A stretch of 64,000 nucleotides of DNA from Gordonia insulae (lineage in GTDB: Bacteria > Actinomycetota > Actinomycetes > Mycobacteriales > Mycobacteriaceae), in assembly GCF_003855095.1 (NCBI RefSeq), contig NZ_CP033972.1:4774001-4838000 (forward strand), written 5' to 3'. Positions 4,628 to 40,242 of the stretch are shown in pieces (position 1 is the first letter of the stretch; each line of letters opens with the position of its first letter). The notes beneath the pieces were generated by a model. The model saw only the letters and a program-made list of their open reading frames with translations, did not search any database and was not told the DNA's origin. A program made the position numbers and the translations under genes.

Positions 4628-5347
4628 TCAGGACTCGCTCTGCAGGTCGGATTCGGTGGACACCACGTCGGCGGCCGACTTCTTGGCCACCCGGCGACGC
4701 CGGTACCACTCGACGAACATCGGCAACACCGACAAGACCACGATCAAGATGAAGATCGGCTCGATCAGCTTCTGCACGATCTCGAATCGACCCAGCCAAT
4801 AGCCCAGCAGGACGATTCCCGCACCCCAGACGATGGCGCCGACGACGTTGTAGACGAAGAAGACCGAGTATTTCATCCGCGCGGCGCCGGCGACGATCGG
4901 CGCGAGCGTACGGACGATGGGCACGAAGCGGGCGAGGAAGATCGTGATCGGGCCGCGCTTCTCGAAGAACTCGTGTGCCTCGATGAGATAGCGCTCCTTG
5001 AGGAAGCGGGCGTCCGGCTTGAACATGCTGGTGCCGACATACCGGCCGATCCAGTAACCGATCTGTCCGCCGATGATGGCCGCGATCGGGATGAAGATCA
5101 GCAACTGCCAGAGCGATGCGAACTTGTCGATCCCGTCCTTGCCGCCGGCCGCGACCACCATTCCGGCCACGAACAGCAGCGAGTCGCCCGGCAGGACCGG
5201 GAAGAGCACCCCGGACTCGATCAGGATCACCAGGAGCAGGCCCCAGAAGGCCCAGGCGCCGAAGTACCCCAGGAGGGTCACCGGGTCGAGGAATCCCGGC
5301 ATGAGGGCGACGTTTGTCGTGGTCTGGGCGAGAGCGGAGTCGATCAC
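4628..5347 (-). CDS. DedA-family membrane protein
   Basis: A 239-residue polytopic membrane protein of the DedA/SNARE-associated family. It contains the FxESG...PGD motif (LLVILIESGVLFPVLPGDSL) and the FLARFVPIVRT...AG motif that forms the conserved acidic/arginine core. It resembles Rv0364 by recall, which also neighbours fba. DedA members include UptA, shown to move undecaprenyl phosphate back across the membrane; in this order the lipid would be decaprenyl phosphate. Its ATG overlaps the stop of the upstream DUF368 gene (ATGA), so the two are translationally coupled. Role inferred from family. Confidence 0.9.
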   Translation of the reverse strand: MIDSALAQTTTNVALMPGFLDPVTLLGYFGAWAFWGLLLVILIESGVLFPVLPGDSLLFVAGMVVAAGGKDGIDKFASLWQLLIFIPIAAIIGGQIGYWIGRYVGTSMFKPDARFLKERYLIEAHEFFEKRGPITIFLARFVPIVRTLAPIVAGAARMKYSVFFVYNVVGAIVWGAGIVLLGYWLGRFEIVQKLIEPIFILIVVLSVLPMFVEWYRRRRVAKKSAADVVSTESDLQSES

Positions 5348-33666: not shown

Positions 33667-34185
33667 ATGGCACAGGGCGCATCTGACCGCGATCAACCGG
33701 ACCCCGGGGATCGCGGCGACGGCACGCCCGTGGACGAGCCGCCCGCCGCCCCGTCGTGGCGGAACGCCCTGCCGTTTCTGGTGGCGCTGGGCGTGGTGGT
33801 CGTCGCGGCTGTCGGTATCGGCATCTCGTATCTGGTGCGGCCGGCCGACGATCGGATGAGCACCGAGGCGCATGTTCAACATGCGATCAACAACGCCTAC
33901 ACCGCGCGCAACGACCTCGACTACGCCAAGTTCCGGGACGCGACGTGTGCCGCCGATCTGTCGTCGACGACGTTCCCGAGTGAATCGACGTTCCTCGGGG
34001 ACAACCGGCGCTCGTTCGACGAGAACGGCCACATCGTGATCCCGGAGATCTCCGGCGTGACCGTGGACGGAGACCGGGCGACCGCGCAGGTACATTGGCA
34101 TTTCGATGAGAAGTCCGACCAGAACCAGGTGACCGAGATGGTCGTGGTGCGAGAAGACGGGGACTGGAAGGTGTGCACGTCGTGA
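33667..34185 (+). CDS. Single-span membrane protein with DUF4878-like extracytoplasmic domain
   Basis: A 172-residue protein: a polar, acidic cytoplasmic N-terminus (about 45 residues), one span (NALPFLVALGVVVVAAVGIGI), and a roughly 105-residue outer domain. The outer domain has the same pattern as the C-terminal domain of the protein at 8909-10948: AINNAYTARNDLDYAKFRDATCAAD at the front, and WKVCTS at the end, with one cysteine in each. They are probably paralogous. It is the first gene of a coupled unit with a rhodanese and metZ (GTGA overlaps). Function unknown. Confidence 0.78.
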   Translation: MAQGASDRDQPDPGDRGDGTPVDEPPAAPSWRNALPFLVALGVVVVAAVGIGISYLVRPADDRMSTEAHVQHAINNAYTARNDLDYAKFRDATCAADLSSTTFPSESTFLGDNRRSFDENGHIVIPEISGVTVDGDRATAQVHWHFDEKSDQNQVTEMVVVREDGDWKVCTS

Positions 34186-34595
34186 GCTATTCGGGAGACA
34201 TCACGCCGCAGGAGGCGTGGGAGAAGCTGGAGAACGATCCGAAGGCCGTGCTGGTCGACTGTCGCACCCGGGCCGAGTGGGCCTTCGTCGGCGTGCCGGA
34301 TCTCGAGGTGATCGGCAAGCAGACCGTCTTCATCGAGTGGACCACTTTCCCCGACGGGGTGCCGAACAGTTCGTTCGTGGACCAGTTGCGGGCGGCCGGC
34401 GTGTCCGACGACAACGAGGTCATCTTCATCTGCCGCTCGGGACATCGATCCATCGGCGCGGCCCAGGCGGCCACCGCTGACGGCGTGTCGGCGGCCTACA
34501 ACGTGCTCGACGGTTTCGAGGGCGGGCTCGACGAGAACGACCACCGTGGCGCCACCGGGTGGCGTGCCCTGAACCTCCCGTGGCGGCAGTCGTGA
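34182..34595 (+). CDS. Rhodanese-domain sulfurtransferase (Rv0390-like)
   Basis: A 137-residue single-domain rhodanese, collinear with mycobacterial Rv0390 by recall. The active-site loop FICRSGHRSIGAAQ carries the catalytic cysteine, preceded by AVLVDCRTRAEWAFVGVPD and closed by YNVLDGFEGGLDENDHRGATGWRALNLPW. The cysteine would carry persulfide sulfur. GTG 34182 overlaps the stop of the previous gene, and its own stop overlaps the GTG start of metZ. The fixed pairing with O-succinylhomoserine sulfhydrylase suggests it delivers reduced sulfur to that enzyme, but this is inference. Confidence 0.9.
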   Translation: MSYSGDITPQEAWEKLENDPKAVLVDCRTRAEWAFVGVPDLEVIGKQTVFIEWTTFPDGVPNSSFVDQLRAAGVSDDNEVIFICRSGHRSIGAAQAATADGVSAAYNVLDGFEGGLDENDHRGATGWRALNLPWRQS

Positions 34596-35791
34596 GCAGG
34601 CAACTGCCCGAAGGGGTTTCGCCGGACACGTTGGCGGTGCGCGCCGGGCTGGACCGGTCCGGGTTCTTCGAGACCTCCGAGGCGCTGTATCTGACCAGCG
34701 GCTACGTGTACGACTCGGCCGAGGCAGCCGAGCGGGCCTTCACCGGTGAGGACGAGCGATTCGTCTACTCCCGTTACGGCAACCCCACCGTGGCGATGTT
34801 CCAGGAGCGGCTCCGGCAACTCGAGGGTGCCGAGGCGTGCTTCGCCACCGCCAGCGGCATGGCCGCGGTGTTCGTCGCCCTGGGTGCGCTGCTGAAGACC
34901 GGCGACCGGTTGGTGGCCGCACGCAGCCTGTTCGGCTCCTGCTTCGTGGTCTGCAACGAGATCCTGCCCCGGTGGGGCATCGAGACGGTGTTCGTCGACG
35001 GTGAGGACCTCGACCAGTGGGAATCGGCACTGTCGACGCCGACGACAGCGGTGTTCTTCGAGACACCGTCGAATCCGATGCAGACCCTGGTGGATGTCGC
35101 CAAGGTCACCGAGATGGCACACGCCGCGGGTGCAAAGGTGGTGCTGGACAACGTCTTCGCCACTCCGCTGCTGCAGAGCGGCCTCGACATGGGTGCCGAC
35201 GTCATCGTCTACTCCGGGACCAAACACATCGACGGCCAGGGTCGGGTGATGGGCGGTGCGGTGCTGGGCGCCAAGGACTACATCGACGGTCCGGTGCAGA
35301 CCCTCATGCGGCACACCGGTCCGGCGCTGAGTCCGTTCAACGCCTGGACGATGCTCAAGGGCCTCGAGACGATGCGCCTGCGACTCGACGCCTCGGTGTC
35401 GTCGGCGCTGCGCATCGCGCAGTTCCTGGAGGACGATTCGCGGGTCCGCTGGGTGAAGTACCCGTTCCTGAAGTCGCATCCGCAGTACGACCTCGCGACG
35501 GCGCAGATGTCCGGTGGCGGCACCGTCGTCACCTTCGAGATCGGTGACCTCGACGGCGTCGACGGGAAGAAGCGTGCCTTCGAGGTGCTCAATGCGCTTC
35601 GCGTGGTGGACATCTCGAACAACCTCGGTGACTCGAAGTCGTTGATCACCCATCCGGCCACGACCACCCACCGCGCGATGGGTCCGGAGGGTCGGGCCGC
35701 GATCGGTGTCACCGACTCGGTGGTGCGCCTGTCGGTGGGCCTCGAGGGTGTCGACGACCTGCTCGCGGACCTGGATCAGGCGCTCGGCTGA
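34592..35791 (+). CDS. metZ: O-succinylhomoserine sulfhydrylase
   Basis: A 399-residue PLP enzyme of the Cys/Met metabolism family that makes homocysteine directly from O-succinylhomoserine and sulfide. Features: YSRYGNPTV, ATASGMAAVFVAL, FFETPSNP, VLDNVFATP, and the PLP lysine in VYSGTKHIDGQGR. The C-terminus has THPATTTHR and GVTDSVVRLSVGLE. The GQGRVMGG context after the lysine is typical of the sulfhydrylase (MetZ) rather than of gamma-synthase. GTG 34592 overlaps the rhodanese stop codon (GTGA). It converges on the isochorismate synthase gene with only three bases between stops. Confidence 0.93.
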   Translation: MSRQLPEGVSPDTLAVRAGLDRSGFFETSEALYLTSGYVYDSAEAAERAFTGEDERFVYSRYGNPTVAMFQERLRQLEGAEACFATASGMAAVFVALGALLKTGDRLVAARSLFGSCFVVCNEILPRWGIETVFVDGEDLDQWESALSTPTTAVFFETPSNPMQTLVDVAKVTEMAHAAGAKVVLDNVFATPLLQSGLDMGADVIVYSGTKHIDGQGRVMGGAVLGAKDYIDGPVQTLMRHTGPALSPFNAWTMLKGLETMRLRLDASVSSALRIAQFLEDDSRVRWVKYPFLKSHPQYDLATAQMSGGGTVVTFEIGDLDGVDGKKRAFEVLNALRVVDISNNLGDSKSLITHPATTTHRAMGPEGRAAIGVTDSVVRLSVGLEGVDDLLADLDQALG

Positions 35792-35794
35792 CGA

Positions 35795-36901
35795 TCAGCT
35801 GTCGGCGATCCCCAGCGCCGTGAGCACGGTGCGTAATTTGGCCGTCGTCTCGTCCAGTTCTGCCTGCGGGTCGGACTGCGCGACGATCCCGCCACCGGCC
35901 CACGTGCGCAGGTGATGTCGATCCTCGGCGAGTTGTAGGCACCGGATGGTCACCATCCACTCGCCGTCGCCCGCGGCATCACACCAGCCGACCGCGCCTC
36001 CGTACAGCCCCCGCGGCTCCTCGACTTCCCGGATGAATTGCGCGGCAACATCACTCGGCGTGCCACAGACGGCGGGCGTAGGACTGAGCAGCAGTGCGAG
36101 GTCCAGCGCGGTGACCGAGTCGTCGCGCAGGGTCGCCCGGATCGGTGTCGCGAGATGCCAGATCTCGCCGGTGGCACGGACCTCGGGCGTCGACGGTGCT
36201 TGCAGATCCGCGCAGATCGGACCGAGGCGGTCGCGCAGGTAGTCGACGACGAACGCGTGCTCGGCGAGGTCCTTGCCCGACGCCGCGAGCGCGGCTGCCG
36301 CGGCACGATCGGTCTCCGGATCCGACGACCGGGGCGCGGAACCGGCGTACGGTTGCGCGGTCACCACGCGACCGTCCTTGCGTAACAACACCTCCGGGCT
36401 GGCGCCGAGCAACCACGAGCCGTCGCCGGTCGCCGCGCCGACGTTCACGCCGAAGGCGTTGTGCTCGGTGTTGCCGTGCGCGAGTGCGCCGAGCAGATCC
36501 TCGACGTCGGCGGCCGGTGCGATCGCGAGGTCCACCGCGCGCGCCAGCACCACCTTGTCGACGGCGCCGTCGGCGATCGCCTTGATGGCGCGGGTCACGC
36601 GGTCGCGGTGGACCGGGCGGTCGGGGTGGTAGGTCCTCGACGTCACGTCGTGGCGTCGGGGCCGCGCGCCCGCGAGCGGCGCGGAGTCGTGCGTCAGTGC
36701 GACGGGTGCGACCAGCGCCGCGCGATCGTCCGGGTCGAAGGGGATCGCGCCGGTGATCGCGTCGACCGCTCCGGTCCGGACGGCGTGGGCGGCGTCCGCT
36801 GTCTCGGTGAAGCGGCGCCGGTGGCCGTGACCGCGCACTGTGCCGTGGGGACGGGACAGCACGAACACCACGGGGGAGACGCCGTCGTCGGGAAACGCCA
36901 T
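35795..36901 (-). CDS. Isochorismate synthase
   Basis: A 368-residue chorismate-utilising enzyme converting chorismate to isochorismate. Motifs: KVVLARAVDL, GASPEVLLRKDGRVVTAQPYAGSAPR, GEIWHLATPIRATL, LLSPTPAVCGTPSDVA, and GLYGGAVGWCDAAGDGEWMVTIRC. The length fits EntC/DhbC and Rv3215 rather than MenF with its longer N-terminus. The product could feed 2,3-dihydroxybenzoate or salicylate siderophores, or menaquinone. No isochorismatase, MenD or siderophore NRPS is in the window, so the pathway is open. The iron importer lies about 6 kb upstream. Confidence 0.88.
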   Translation of the reverse strand: MAFPDDGVSPVVFVLSRPHGTVRGHGHRRRFTETADAAHAVRTGAVDAITGAIPFDPDDRAALVAPVALTHDSAPLAGARPRRHDVTSRTYHPDRPVHRDRVTRAIKAIADGAVDKVVLARAVDLAIAPAADVEDLLGALAHGNTEHNAFGVNVGAATGDGSWLLGASPEVLLRKDGRVVTAQPYAGSAPRSSDPETDRAAAAALAASGKDLAEHAFVVDYLRDRLGPICADLQAPSTPEVRATGEIWHLATPIRATLRDDSVTALDLALLLSPTPAVCGTPSDVAAQFIREVEEPRGLYGGAVGWCDAAGDGEWMVTIRCLQLAEDRHHLRTWAGGGIVAQSDPQAELDETTAKLRTVLTALGIADS

Positions 36902-36990: not shown

Positions 36991-37095
36991 CAGGTCATGA
37001 GTGCCAGTGACAAGCCCCGGCTCGCTGGTCGGCAACCCTCCTCCGCGGTGGGGTGCTCCGGGTGACGACCTGGCCGTGGTCGAGGTGATCACGGC
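36991..37095 (+). promoter_or_regulatory. SAM-IV riboswitch
   Basis: The sequence follows the actinobacterial SAM-IV pattern: outer stem CAGGTC (36991-36996) with GACCTG (37067-37072), the core GTGCCAGTGACAAGCCCCGG then CTCGCTGGTCGGCAACCCTCC, and GGTGGGGTGCTCCGGGTG. The AGCGAC-like joining segment and CGGCAACC are the SAM-binding core shared with SAM-I. A further hairpin, GCCGTG...CACGGC (37073-37095), lies between the aptamer and the AAGGAG ribosome site (37109-37114), so control is probably at translation start or by stem exchange there. It precedes the PLP enzyme at 37123. Confidence 0.88.
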
Positions 37096-37122
37096 AAGCG
37101 CGGATTCCAAGGAGCATTTGTC

Positions 37123-38427
37123 ATGACCGCTGTTCTCTCAGCACCCTTCCTCACACCCATCGCCGAGCTCGGTCCGGCGCACCCGTCCATCGCGCCGCTC
37201 GCGCAGGTCGTCGGTGCCGACGAGTGCGTGCCGCTGCGTGCAGGCGATTCGGCGCGCTACGCCAACCTCGACTACGCGGCCAGCGCGCCGGCCCTGACGG
37301 CGGTGGCGCAGACCGTGCAGGCGTCCCTCGCGCAGTACGCCAGCGTGCATCGTGGTGCCGGCCACCTGTCGCAGGTCACCACCCGACGCTATGAGGAAGC
37401 CCGCGAAACGGTCCGGGCGTTTGTCCGCGGCCGTGTGGACGACGCGGTGGTGTTCACCCGCGGCACCACCGACGCGATCAATCTCGCGGCGCATGTGACC
37501 TGCGGTGACGTCGTGGTGCTCGACATCGAGCACCATGCGAACCTGCTCCCGTGGTGCGCACCGGACCGCACCGGATCATCGCGGGTGCGGGTCGTGCCGG
37601 CATGCGCCACGATCGAGGACACCCTTGCGGCGCTCGACGCCGAACTCGCCTCCGCGCCGGCCGCGCTCCTCGCGGTGACCGCGGCGTCCAACGTCACCGG
37701 TGAGGTCCTGCCGATCGGCCGTCTCGCGTCGATCGCCCATCGGCACGGCGCGCGCATCCTCGTCGATGCCGCCCAACTGGTGGCTCATCGTCGGGTGTCG
37801 ATGGTCAGCCACGGCATCGATTACCTGGTGTTCTCCGGTCACAAGCTCTACGCACCGTTCGGTGCGGGCGTCCTGATCGGCCGCGCCGACTGGCTCGACG
37901 CCGCCCCGCCGTATCTCGCCGGTGGCGGCGCGTCCGCGAGCGTGGACTTCGGAATCACCGGTGCCGACGCCGCGGTCGAGTGGCATCGCGGACCGGCGCG
38001 GCATGAGGCGGGGTCGCCGAATGTACTCGGCGCCATCTCGATCGCGGCGGCGTGCACGGCGCTGGCCGACATCGGGTTCGATTCCATCGGTCTGCACGAG
38101 GAGGCGCTGCGTGCCCGTCTCGACGACGGGCTCGCCGCGATCGACGGCGTGACCGCATTGCGGATCTTCGACGACTCGACGGATCGGGTGGGGATCGCAG
38201 GCTTCGACGTCGCCGGCCACGCACCTCGGGCGGTCGCCGAGTACCTCAGCTCTGATGCGGGCGTCGGAGTGCGGGACGGGAAGTTCTGCGCGCACCCGTT
38301 GTTGAAGCGGTTGGGTCACCCCGACGGCGCTGTCCGGGCGAGTTTCGGGCTCGGGACCGGCTCCGACGACATCGACCGACTGACCGATGCCCTGACGCGG
38401 CTGACCACGAGAGCGAGGACATCGTGA
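37123..38427 (+). CDS. Class V aminotransferase-fold PLP enzyme, cysteine-desulfurase-like, under SAM-IV control
   Basis: A 434-residue fold-type I PLP enzyme of the class V group. Features: YANLDYAASAPAL opening, VHRGAGHLSQVTT, FTRGTTDAINLAAH, EHHANLLPW, LLAVTAASNVTGEVLP, VDAAQLVAHRRV, and the PLP lysine in VFSGHKLYAPFGAGVLIG. A cysteine in VRDGKFCAHPLL occupies the place of the SufS-group persulfide cysteine. It is therefore most like a SufS-type cysteine desulfurase, but no Fe-S assembly genes are near and the riboswitch ties it to SAM/methionine supply. ATG 37123 has AAGGAG eight bases upstream. The next gene overlaps its stop (GTGA). Confidence 0.85.
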   Translation: MTAVLSAPFLTPIAELGPAHPSIAPLAQVVGADECVPLRAGDSARYANLDYAASAPALTAVAQTVQASLAQYASVHRGAGHLSQVTTRRYEEARETVRAFVRGRVDDAVVFTRGTTDAINLAAHVTCGDVVVLDIEHHANLLPWCAPDRTGSSRVRVVPACATIEDTLAALDAELASAPAALLAVTAASNVTGEVLPIGRLASIAHRHGARILVDAAQLVAHRRVSMVSHGIDYLVFSGHKLYAPFGAGVLIGRADWLDAAPPYLAGGGASASVDFGITGADAAVEWHRGPARHEAGSPNVLGAISIAAACTALADIGFDSIGLHEEALRARLDDGLAAIDGVTALRIFDDSTDRVGIAGFDVAGHAPRAVAEYLSSDAGVGVRDGKFCAHPLLKRLGHPDGAVRASFGLGTGSDDIDRLTDALTRLTTRARTS

Positions 38428-38879
38428 CCATCGAGTTCGTTCACCAGACACCGGCGACCATCAGCATCGGCCGACCCGGCCTGCAGGTCGCCGTGGCGGG
38501 AGATCCGCTGGCGCAATCTTTTCCGATCGTGGTGCGGCGCTCGACGCTGCGCGATGCCCAACGCGCCAGGTCACTGCTGAGGGCAGGCACGCACGATCCG
38601 GCGAACTTCGTCGTGGCGCTCGAGGTCGAGGCCGCGATCGCGCCACACCCGGCATCGGCCCGCGCGTCTGCCGCGGATGAACCCGTACGCGCCGACGACA
38701 CCGAGACGATCCGCTACGTCGGGACGCCCCGCGGTCTGGTCTCCCTCATCCGCGACATCTACGTCGCCGAGATCGCCGATGCGGTGATCATTGTGCCGCT
38801 CGACGGGTCGGCGACCGCCGCTCGGGTGCGCGAGCAGGTGCTGCCGGTGCTCGATCCCGCGCGGGGCCGCGTCGCCTGA
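38424..38879 (+). CDS. Stand-alone C-terminal domain of a luciferase-like monooxygenase
   Basis: A 151-residue protein that reads like the last third of a bacterial luciferase-like flavin monooxygenase: a hinge FPIVVRRSTLRDAQRAR, then RYVGTPRGLVSLIRDIYVAEIADAVIIVPLDG, the strand and helix that close the barrel in SsuD-type enzymes, and VREQVLPVLD at the end. The N-terminal TIM-barrel half with the flavin site is absent, and no remnant of it lies upstream, where the PLP-enzyme gene overlaps the start (GTGA). It therefore looks like a deliberate short protein, not a decayed gene. A sulfur-related partner role is inferred from the operon. Confidence 0.6.
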   Translation: MTIEFVHQTPATISIGRPGLQVAVAGDPLAQSFPIVVRRSTLRDAQRARSLLRAGTHDPANFVVALEVEAAIAPHPASARASAADEPVRADDTETIRYVGTPRGLVSLIRDIYVAEIADAVIIVPLDGSATAARVREQVLPVLDPARGRVA

Positions 38880-38967: not shown

Positions 38968-40242
38968 ATGGTTCGGGGTAGTGGTGTGTCGATGCTCGGT
39001 CGCCTGGCAGTGGCGTCGATCGTGGTGGTCTGTGCGGTGATCGGGGTGGCCTCGACGGCCGGGCCGGCGCAGGCGGGCACCTACCAGCGGTACCTGGACC
39101 TGCCCCTGACCAACCGATTCGCCGATCAGCATGGCGGCGGGGTCAATCGCGGTCTGCCGACGGACCTCGACAGGCTTCGCGGCCTGCTCCAGGAGGCCCG
39201 CTCCGACGGTGTGGCGCCGAAACACTATGCCGCCCTGCTCTTCCAGTACCGACTCGTCCAGGCGACGACCGAGGCCGGCATCGAACTGGCCACCTGGGAT
39301 CCCGCGAAGGGATTCCACGCGACCCGAGCGACGATGATCAAGAGCTACCGCTACTACGAGAACTTCCAGATCGCTCACCGCGGGCTGCAGTGGGCGGGCA
39401 TGGCCGGCATGGTCGGCGCCGATTTCGGCGGCGGCACAGCCGATGTGGTTCTCGCCGGCGACATCTACCGCATCCAGGGGCTGCAGCCACTCGCGGCCGC
39501 GATCATCGACAAGGCCGTGTCGGTCGCCGGTCCGGGTGTTGTCGGTGTGTTCCCGGCGGGACTGCGCAATCTCGCGTACCACGCGGACAAGATCACCCCG
39601 GCCGATCTGGACTGGTTCTCGCGGCAGATCCTGGTGATGCAGAAGGCGATCTTCACCGATCTGATGCCGCTACACGTCGCCTACGTCAAGGACGGGCTGC
39701 GCGGCATCGACGAGTTCCGCGCCGCCGGCCTCATCGACGACGGGATCGCCGGGGCGTGGCGCGACATCGCGTCCAACGACGATGCACGGGTGGCCCGGGG
39801 CAACGAGACCCTGCTGCGGCGTGAGCAATACGACGTGGTGGGTTGGCAATTCGACAACGTGCGCAACTATCGCAAAGCCGACGGCGTCGGGGCCGCGCTC
39901 ACCTACGCGATGACCCTGGCCGGCTCGCCCTCCATCGCCGGGGTTCCCGCACTGCGCAACTTCATCTCGTTCACCTACCGGGACCGGATGGCTGACGGCC
40001 GTACACTCCGAATCGCCACCCCGATCCCCGATTGGGACTGGTCGGTCTTCGACCTGCGGTGGAAGTACGTCACCACCGAGTTGCTGCCGCGATATCAGGA
40101 CATGCTGAACCACAACCACTCTGCGTTGATGGCTCAGATGAAGGTGCCGTACGAGACTCAATTCGAGTCGCATCGCCCGATCGTCAACCTACACAAGATT
40201 CTCGGGGATGCGCTGGCGCACACCAGCGTCACGGTGTCTTGA
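38968..40242 (+). CDS. Large secreted protein of unknown function
   Basis: A 424-residue protein with a signal peptide (RLAVASIVVVCAVIGVAST, cleavage near GPAQA-G). The mature 385 residues are mainly helical, with many aromatic residues and short motifs such as NRFADQHGGGVNRGLPTDLDRLRG, KSYRYYENFQIAHRGLQWAGMAGMVGADFGGGTADVVLAGDIYRIQG, and WDWSVFDLRWKYVTTELLPRYQDMLNHNH. There are no cysteines in the mature part that I can see and no membrane spans. I do not recognise the family. It has its own strong promoter and is followed by a convergent gene, so it is monocistronic. Confidence 0.8.
   Translation: MVRGSGVSMLGRLAVASIVVVCAVIGVASTAGPAQAGTYQRYLDLPLTNRFADQHGGGVNRGLPTDLDRLRGLLQEARSDGVAPKHYAALLFQYRLVQATTEAGIELATWDPAKGFHATRATMIKSYRYYENFQIAHRGLQWAGMAGMVGADFGGGTADVVLAGDIYRIQGLQPLAAAIIDKAVSVAGPGVVGVFPAGLRNLAYHADKITPADLDWFSRQILVMQKAIFTDLMPLHVAYVKDGLRGIDEFRAAGLIDDGIAGAWRDIASNDDARVARGNETLLRREQYDVVGWQFDNVRNYRKADGVGAALTYAMTLAGSPSIAGVPALRNFISFTYRDRMADGRTLRIATPIPDWDWSVFDLRWKYVTTELLPRYQDMLNHNHSALMAQMKVPYETQFESHRPIVNLHKILGDALAHTSVTVS

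Follow-up and report, generated by a model that had tools for sequence, protein, structure and literature searches.

Riboswitches of the SAM-IV class, for which a structure has been reported (PMC6890682), precede a cysteine desulfurase gene in Streptomyces lividans (PMC8079986), an O-acetylhomoserine sulfhydrylase gene in Mycobacterium avium (PMC3774663), and cg1478 in Corynebacterium glutamicum (PMC3890552), and MetC of Mycobacterium tuberculosis is predicted to be controlled by an S-adenosylmethionine (SAM) riboswitch (PMC9232105). Among luciferase-like proteins, LuxF, the non-fluorescent flavoprotein (PDB 1nfp, 4j2p), has an internally shortened luciferase fold that lacks one strand and three helices and was retained by evolution; it dimerizes across the exposed cleft and binds a flavin adduct (PMC4432964). 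Here, we analyzed a stretch of 64,000 nucleotides from Gordonia insulae (contig NZ_CP033972.1, positions 4,774,001 to 4,838,000; hereafter, the window), in which a SAM-IV riboswitch (RF00634) heads a gene for a desulfurase-like pyridoxal 5′-phosphate (PLP) enzyme and a second open reading frame (ORF), ORF2, for a putative half-barrel protein derived from luciferase-like monooxygenases (LLMs). There is, in our estimation, an even chance that this operon frees cysteine sulfur for methionine synthesis at low SAM, with ORF2 as a non-catalytic partner.

Nothing was found in open-licence papers on the pair of a desulfurase-like gene and a half-barrel gene behind SAM-IV, and the available parts of three Gordonia papers (PMC11852219, PMC9861168, and PMC11117675) do not mention it. 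In Gordonia strain NB4-1Y, the cysteine desulfurase RS04970 was higher on 6:2 fluorotelomer sulfonate (6:2 FTSA; PMC7661421); it may or may not correspond to the PLP gene of the window.

The SAM-IV riboswitch and the desulfurase-like enzyme

The RF00634 covariance model was matched by cmscan over its full length (1–116) and well over the curated cut-off, indicating a complete aptamer (Table 1), which would be expected to respond to SAM. The PLP gene begins 16 nt after the aptamer end, and the Shine-Dalgarno-like motif lies inside this gap. The gap was 16–18 nt in 12 Gordonia genomes, including that of the window, for which the PLP match begins at residue 1, and it was longer in other genera. 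Because a gap of 16–18 nt leaves no space for a terminator, the riboswitch of the Gordonia operon likely acts on translation. The start of ORF2 overlaps the stop of the PLP gene, which suggests translational coupling of the two genes. The same 4-nt overlap was found in 12 of 20 Gordonia loci when the longest-ORF starts were used; L074 has a small gap, and the start was unclear in the others.

SAM-IV was present somewhere in 232 of the 251 genomes of the window's family. Other SAM-IV elements of the same genomes preceded MetY-, MetX-, or MetZ-like genes by local BLAST, in which the MetZ label was assigned by similarity to the NF005870 family and the MetY and MetX reference labels are our assumption. 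The window genome has a second SAM-IV (G000:C1:1628777-1628896; L109), followed by genes that resemble metY and metX. In L178, a PLP gene without ORF2 is preceded by two classes of SAM riboswitch placed back to back, an S-box riboswitch (RF00162; 4593-4682, minus strand) and a SAM-IV riboswitch (4847-4961, plus strand). In L090 (genome G037), four SAM-IV matches lie inside about 6 kb, amid LLM, transporter-like, and PLP genes.

The first gene encodes a protein whose nearest solved structures are cysteine desulfurases. With the SufS/Csd group (TIGR01979; PDB 8kg1, 1jf9, and 5xt5), it shares the class V fold, the PLP lysine, and the active-site cysteine, with which Lys241 and Cys389 align. Both residues were kept in 29 of the loci with the best 30 PLP matches, the exception being L087, which lacks the C-terminal part. 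TIGR01979 (SufS) was the top NCBIfam model, with 276.8 bits against a cut-off of 475.1, so that the protein falls outside the family as defined. The subfamily also differs from the SufS/Csd group in its methionine-free core, its SAM-IV control, and its distinctness from a SufS-like paralogue, a separate protein with roughly 32–41 percent identity that most genomes carrying PLP matches also encode. The PLP protein is most likely a SufS/Csd-like cysteine desulfurase. In L140, L145, L174, L178, L179, L181, L184, L090, and L091, the enzyme carries a C-terminal tail with a W-x-Y and a P-x-TR/PR-like motif and a near-terminal cysteine, possibly a relay cysteine; the window's enzyme lacks this tail.

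ORF2 and the luciferase-like monooxygenase barrel

ORF2 aligned with two blocks of LLM monooxygenases, one at their start and one in their C-terminal part, and the roughly 160–180 residues between these blocks were absent. The nearest full-length relatives found were NtaA/DmoA-like LLMs of actinobacterial sulfur loci (LLM1), with whose N- and C-terminal blocks ORF2 aligns and from which it differs by the same missing region. The predicted fold was confident and LLM-like. By alignment and predicted fold, ORF2 is about half of an LLM barrel, consisting of the start and the end with the middle missing; the first strand and the last strands that it retains are neighbours in the closed barrel.

Profile and structure searches gave signals of uneven strength. 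The window ORF2 matched no Pfam or NCBIfam model, nor did any of 22 Gordonia members match a luciferase model when scanned against Pfam. All six longer family members scanned matched PF00296 at E < 0.1, and one of them, P0115, passed the cut-off (29.5 against 27.9 bits; model positions 172-249 of 314). The C-terminal part of a profile of seven full-length LLM1 proteins matched all 86 rows tested (68 plus 18, with some proteins counted twice), the LLM1 set having itself been picked as the best full-length matches of an ORF2 profile. Homology to PF00296 was found at the sequence level, and a complete (beta/alpha)8 barrel was not. Foldseek E-values were modest (best, 7.4e-5 and 1.9e-4), and many superpositions had a root-mean-square deviation above 5 Å, which may be expected when half a fold is compared with a whole one. 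A PDB search with the Gordonia ORF2 profile returned weak matches, with DNA polymerase theta first, then ClpC domains, and YtnJ/MoxC at E of about 0.8; the LLM assignment is based on the profile and fold work and not on this search.

By family scans and local labels, the nearest full-length relatives of ORF2 sit in sulfur loci. Two LLM1 proteins scanned were closest to TIGR03860, with 236 and 210 bits, and did not reach its cut-off of 279.7. LLM1 adjoins LLM2 and transporter-like genes in L160, L161, L162, L164, L167, and L173, by local BLAST or presumed labels, and LLM2 of L160 belongs to the NtaA/DmoA family (411.8 against a cut-off of 279.7). L173 (1-15680) is a sulfur-type locus with an S-box SAM riboswitch ahead of transporter-like genes and with LLM1, LLM2, and SfnB-type enzymes. 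Its ORF2 relative is flanked by LLM2 and by an SsuD-like LLM (443 bits, cut-off 510), after which an SfnB enzyme is encoded (470.7 against 430.9). In L176, a flavin reductase gene (PF01613) precedes the ORF2 relative.

The nearest precedent for ORF2 is LuxF. As in LuxF, the luciferase fold carries an internal deletion that has been kept under selection; ORF2 differs in that roughly half of the barrel is missing, a less mild deletion, and in its place in a sulfur-type operon. ORF2 was ruled out as a stand-alone LLM monooxygenase, since the middle of the barrel is absent, and reduced-flavin-dependent oxygenation is unlikely for a protein with this predicted gap.

The original prediction, which placed the start of the riboswitch at 36991, two bases off the cmscan start, had proposed a SAM-IV riboswitch followed by two overlapping genes, the first for a SufS-like PLP enzyme with a retained cysteine. 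The cmscan score, the 4-nt overlap, and the alignment of Lys241 and Cys389 with solved desulfurases agree with this description. It had also described ORF2 as matching only the C-terminal third of luciferase-like monooxygenases; a C-terminal match was recovered, together with the start of the barrel, and the accompanying description of a headless protein without the flavin barrel has to be replaced by that of a barrel without its middle.

Conservation, composition, and neighbouring genes

In a first search for ORF2 relatives, every organism-named match among 68 was from Gordonia, and matches were found in 25 of 61 genomes, all of genus g1. A profile search of the order gave matches in 62 of 397 genomes. 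Twenty-eight of these lie outside the window's family, 27 with matches only in open frames of at least 382 aa, which were taken as full-length LLMs and were not all read, and one (G041, an 86 percent complete draft) with a match in a 134-aa frame. Twenty loci around short ORF2 matches were read: ten, in six other genera (L140-L148 and L154), contained SAM-IV, the PLP gene, and ORF2 in this order, and the remaining ten contained an ORF2 relative without this arrangement. Across the 251 genomes of the family, 157 carried a PLP orthologue (E up to 1e-75) and 151 an ORF2 match (E up to 1e-4). For at least 104 of the 150 PLP genes listed, spread over 12 of 17 genera, an ORF2 match lay at most 1.5 kb downstream on the same strand; none was detected beside the other 46, including all 15 listed of g24, all 6 of g92, and 6 of Gordonia. 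The organism names among the listed relatives were Gordonia, Rhodococcus, Rhodococcoides, Prescottella, Nocardia, Mycolicibacterium, and Mycobacterium. In genus g23 (L150-L153, L155, and L156), ORF2 relatives were seen with neither SAM-IV nor a PLP gene, and several of these loci have as neighbours a membrane-protein gene, presumably TerC-like, and a gene resembling those of nonribosomal peptide synthetases; the latter flanks some SAM-IV operons too.

In Gordonia, purifying selection acts on both genes. The ratio of nonsynonymous to synonymous substitution rates (dN/dS) had a median of 0.266 for ORF2 (range, 0.07-0.45; 251 of 253 pairs, 23 sequences) and was 0.245 for the PLP gene (range, 0.08-0.39; 351 pairs of 27 sequences), the pairs not being independent in either case.

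Shortened PLP-like genes were also found beside ORF2. In genus g92 (L170, L171, L172, and L182), a second PLP-like gene, encoding 269-297 aa without the lysine and cysteine region, precedes ORF2. Upstream of these two come MetZ and one more gene; a rhodanese gene was seen in three of the four loci and SAM-IV in one (L170), and dN/dS of the shortened genes was 0.11-0.36 (six pairs). In Gordonia genomes G012 and G025 (L106 and L107), shortened PLP genes without Lys and Cys adjoin intact ORF2 and SAM-IV.

The proteins of the operon are poor in sulfur. Neither cysteine nor internal methionine occurs in any of the 11 operon ORF2s (window, L140-L148, and L154), compared with such a lack in 5 of 152 background ORFs of 110-230 aa that were called mechanically; a Fisher value for this comparison is too small owing to the relatedness of the ORF2s. 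The same absence was seen in 21 of 22 Gordonia members and, less strictly, in 49 of 68 wider members. The core was methionine-free in 28 of 31 PLP enzymes, the others having 1, 1, and 2 Met, and 4 to 10 Met were counted in 14 of 14 SufS-like paralogues; the spans compared are alike and not identical, the counts take in L092, L093, L096, and the paralogue L219, and the window enzyme is outside the 31. SAM-IV was seen upstream of 28 of these 31 genes; none was detected near L094 or L097, and no position was listed for L185. The active-site cysteine is the sole Cys left in the core of the six PLP enzymes from Gordonia loci L098-L103, which lack ORF2. Eight LLM1 proteins had 0-1 Cys and no internal Met. 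A tendency of sulfur-acquisition proteins toward low Cys/Met content has been stated for Gordonia NB4-1Y (PMC7661421), and the composition found here may be taken as independent support for a context of sulfur starvation.

These surveys also bear on the original prediction that ORF2 takes part in an undescribed sulfur-acquisition step at low SAM and is not debris of a monooxygenase. The gene pair and its riboswitch recurred across genera, and ORF2 was under purifying selection in Gordonia. No full-length monooxygenase gene was seen directly downstream of the PLP gene in the ORF2-less loci read, either by eye (L090, L091, L094, L095, and L098-L103) or with local BLAST labels (L178-L181, L184, and L185), the gene calls being heuristic. 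The sulfur context was supported by the composition and by ORF2 relatives located by SfnB- and LLM-type genes; the link between the riboswitch and a desulfurase was already in print (PMC8079986). The features of the operon and its neighbours are given in Table 1.

Table 1. Positions in the window of the operon features and the neighbouring genes
Feature	Position	Strand	Evidence or remark
SAM-IV riboswitch aptamer (RF00634)	36993..37106	+	cmscan, 111 bits, gathering score 38, E 1.2e-19
Shine-Dalgarno-like AAGGAG	37109..37114	+	2 nt past aptamer end, 8 nt ahead of PLP-gene ATG
SufS-like class V PLP enzyme, 434 aa, 6 Cys, 1 internal Met	37123..38427	+	Aminotran_5, 281 bits
Lys241 in SGHK	37843..37845	+	Predicted PLP lysine, by alignment to SufS/Csd
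Cys389 in GKFCAHP	38287..38289	+	Aligned with SufS/Csd active-site cysteine
Start/stop overlap GTGA, 4 nt	38424..38427	+	ORF2 GTG start over PLP stop
ORF2, 151 aa, putative LLM-derived half-barrel, no Cys, no Met after start	38424..38879	+	Profile, alignment, predicted fold
Rhodanese-domain protein, overlaps metZ	34173..34595	+	PF00581
O-succinylhomoserine sulfhydrylase MetZ	34559..35791	+	NF005870, 764 bits, cut-off 618
Isochorismate synthase-like, divergent from operon	35795..36901	-	TIGR00543, 239.6 bits, cut-off 224.75
DUF2515 gene, next after operon	38968..40242	+	Pfam, 25.7 against a cut-off of 24.3 bits, just over

Proposed role and alternative explanations

The proposal that the operon supplies cysteine sulfur to methionine synthesis builds on the riboswitch match, the gene pair, its conservation, selection, and composition, and the predicted fold, from which we infer the ligand response, the enzyme reaction, the sulfur route, and the role of ORF2. 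At low SAM, the ribosome site would be freed, and the PLP protein and ORF2 would be made together. The PLP enzyme, as a member of a dedicated and nearly methionine-free SufS-like subfamily, would take sulfur from cysteine or a derivative onto Cys389. Released as persulfide or sulfide, this sulfur would reach MetZ or MetY, possibly via the rhodanese encoded beside metZ, and be built into homocysteine; a transfer of cysteine sulfur to homocysteine would be the simplest route. The ancestor of ORF2 would be an NtaA/DmoA-like LLM monooxygenase whose barrel lost its middle. Monooxygenase activity of ORF2 alone is unlikely; the protein probably serves as a non-catalytic partner, be it to the PLP enzyme, to a second ORF2 in a dimer, or to an LLM. 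A bolder version, which we hold tentatively and regard as rather doubtful, is that the half-barrel of a sulfur monooxygenase is coupled to the class V PLP fold as a sulfur-free complex made at low SAM. Since the PLP partner of some lineages has lost Lys and Cys and is still under selection, a structural or sensing role beyond desulfuration is possible.

Several points weigh against the proposed sulfur supply. The TIGR01979 score is well under the cut-off, and the substrate of the PLP protein could therefore differ. PLP proteins without Lys and Cys beside an intact ORF2 argue that the job of ORF2 does not always depend on a working desulfurase. The 46 listed PLP genes without an adjoining ORF2 indicate that the pair is not obligatory, ORF2 relatives also occur without the PLP gene, and their sulfur-poor composition is less strict in the wider family. 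Such a composition gives a hint of the conditions under which a protein is produced and not of its function. The way in which the LLM1 set was picked tells in the same direction. A route from cysteine to methionine is useful only with cysteine or other organic sulfur at hand, and what is known here of the operon comes from sequence and models.

The other explanations differ mainly in what they assign to ORF2. It may be a subunit of a composite monooxygenase, completing or regulating an LLM encoded elsewhere, with the PLP enzyme handling the oxidised sulfur product. ORF2 relatives adjoin full-length LLM, SfnB-type, or flavin reductase genes in L173 and L176 by family scans and in L104, L105, L149, L157, and L158 by local BLAST or presumed labels, and the PLP gene of G037 stands amid LLM and transporter-like genes with four SAM-IV matches; however, no full-length LLM gene was seen in the same operon in the ten SAM-IV operons read by eye (L140-L148 and L154), and we consider this explanation unlikely. 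A homodimer that binds flavin or a flavin adduct as a scavenger or store, and not as an enzyme, would follow the LuxF precedent, but the larger deletion in ORF2 makes this quite improbable. The PLP enzyme might instead be an ordinary desulfurase for Fe-S clusters, thiamine, or tRNA thiolation that is incidentally regulated by SAM. Its SufS-like sequence with an active-site Cys and the listing of the S. lividans gene behind SAM-IV under thiamine metabolism (PMC8079986) are consistent with this, whereas the separate, methionine-containing SufS-like paralogue in most genomes with PLP matches speaks against it, and we judge it very unlikely.

Two further explanations fare worse. That ORF2 is a decayed LLM remnant or a chance reading frame, as might be thought from the missing half of the fold and the failure of the window ORF2 alone to match Pfam or NCBIfam, is highly improbable in view of its presence beside at least 104 of 150 listed PLP genes in 12 genera, its dN/dS of 0.27, and its confident predicted fold; conservation and selection rule it out as far as sequence can. 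Least probable is that ORF2 accepts sulfur from the PLP enzyme in the manner of SufE/SufU. In its size, by comparison with SufE and SufU, and in its place beside a SufS-like gene, ORF2 resembles such a small partner, but its predicted fold is LLM-like, and the absence of an acceptor cysteine from all 11 operon ORF2s rules out a cysteine-persulfide carrier.

Few proteins are known to work after half of a closed barrel has been lost, and LuxF, the luciferase example on record, is a milder case. In the operon analyzed here, a putative half-barrel has been kept beside a riboswitch-controlled desulfurase-like enzyme over many genera, in a markedly sulfur-free form. The pair makes testable both the supply of sulfur to methionine in actinobacteria at low SAM and the means by which a half-barrel stays folded and useful, and it would lend meaning to a family whose members are at present mostly annotated as hypothetical.
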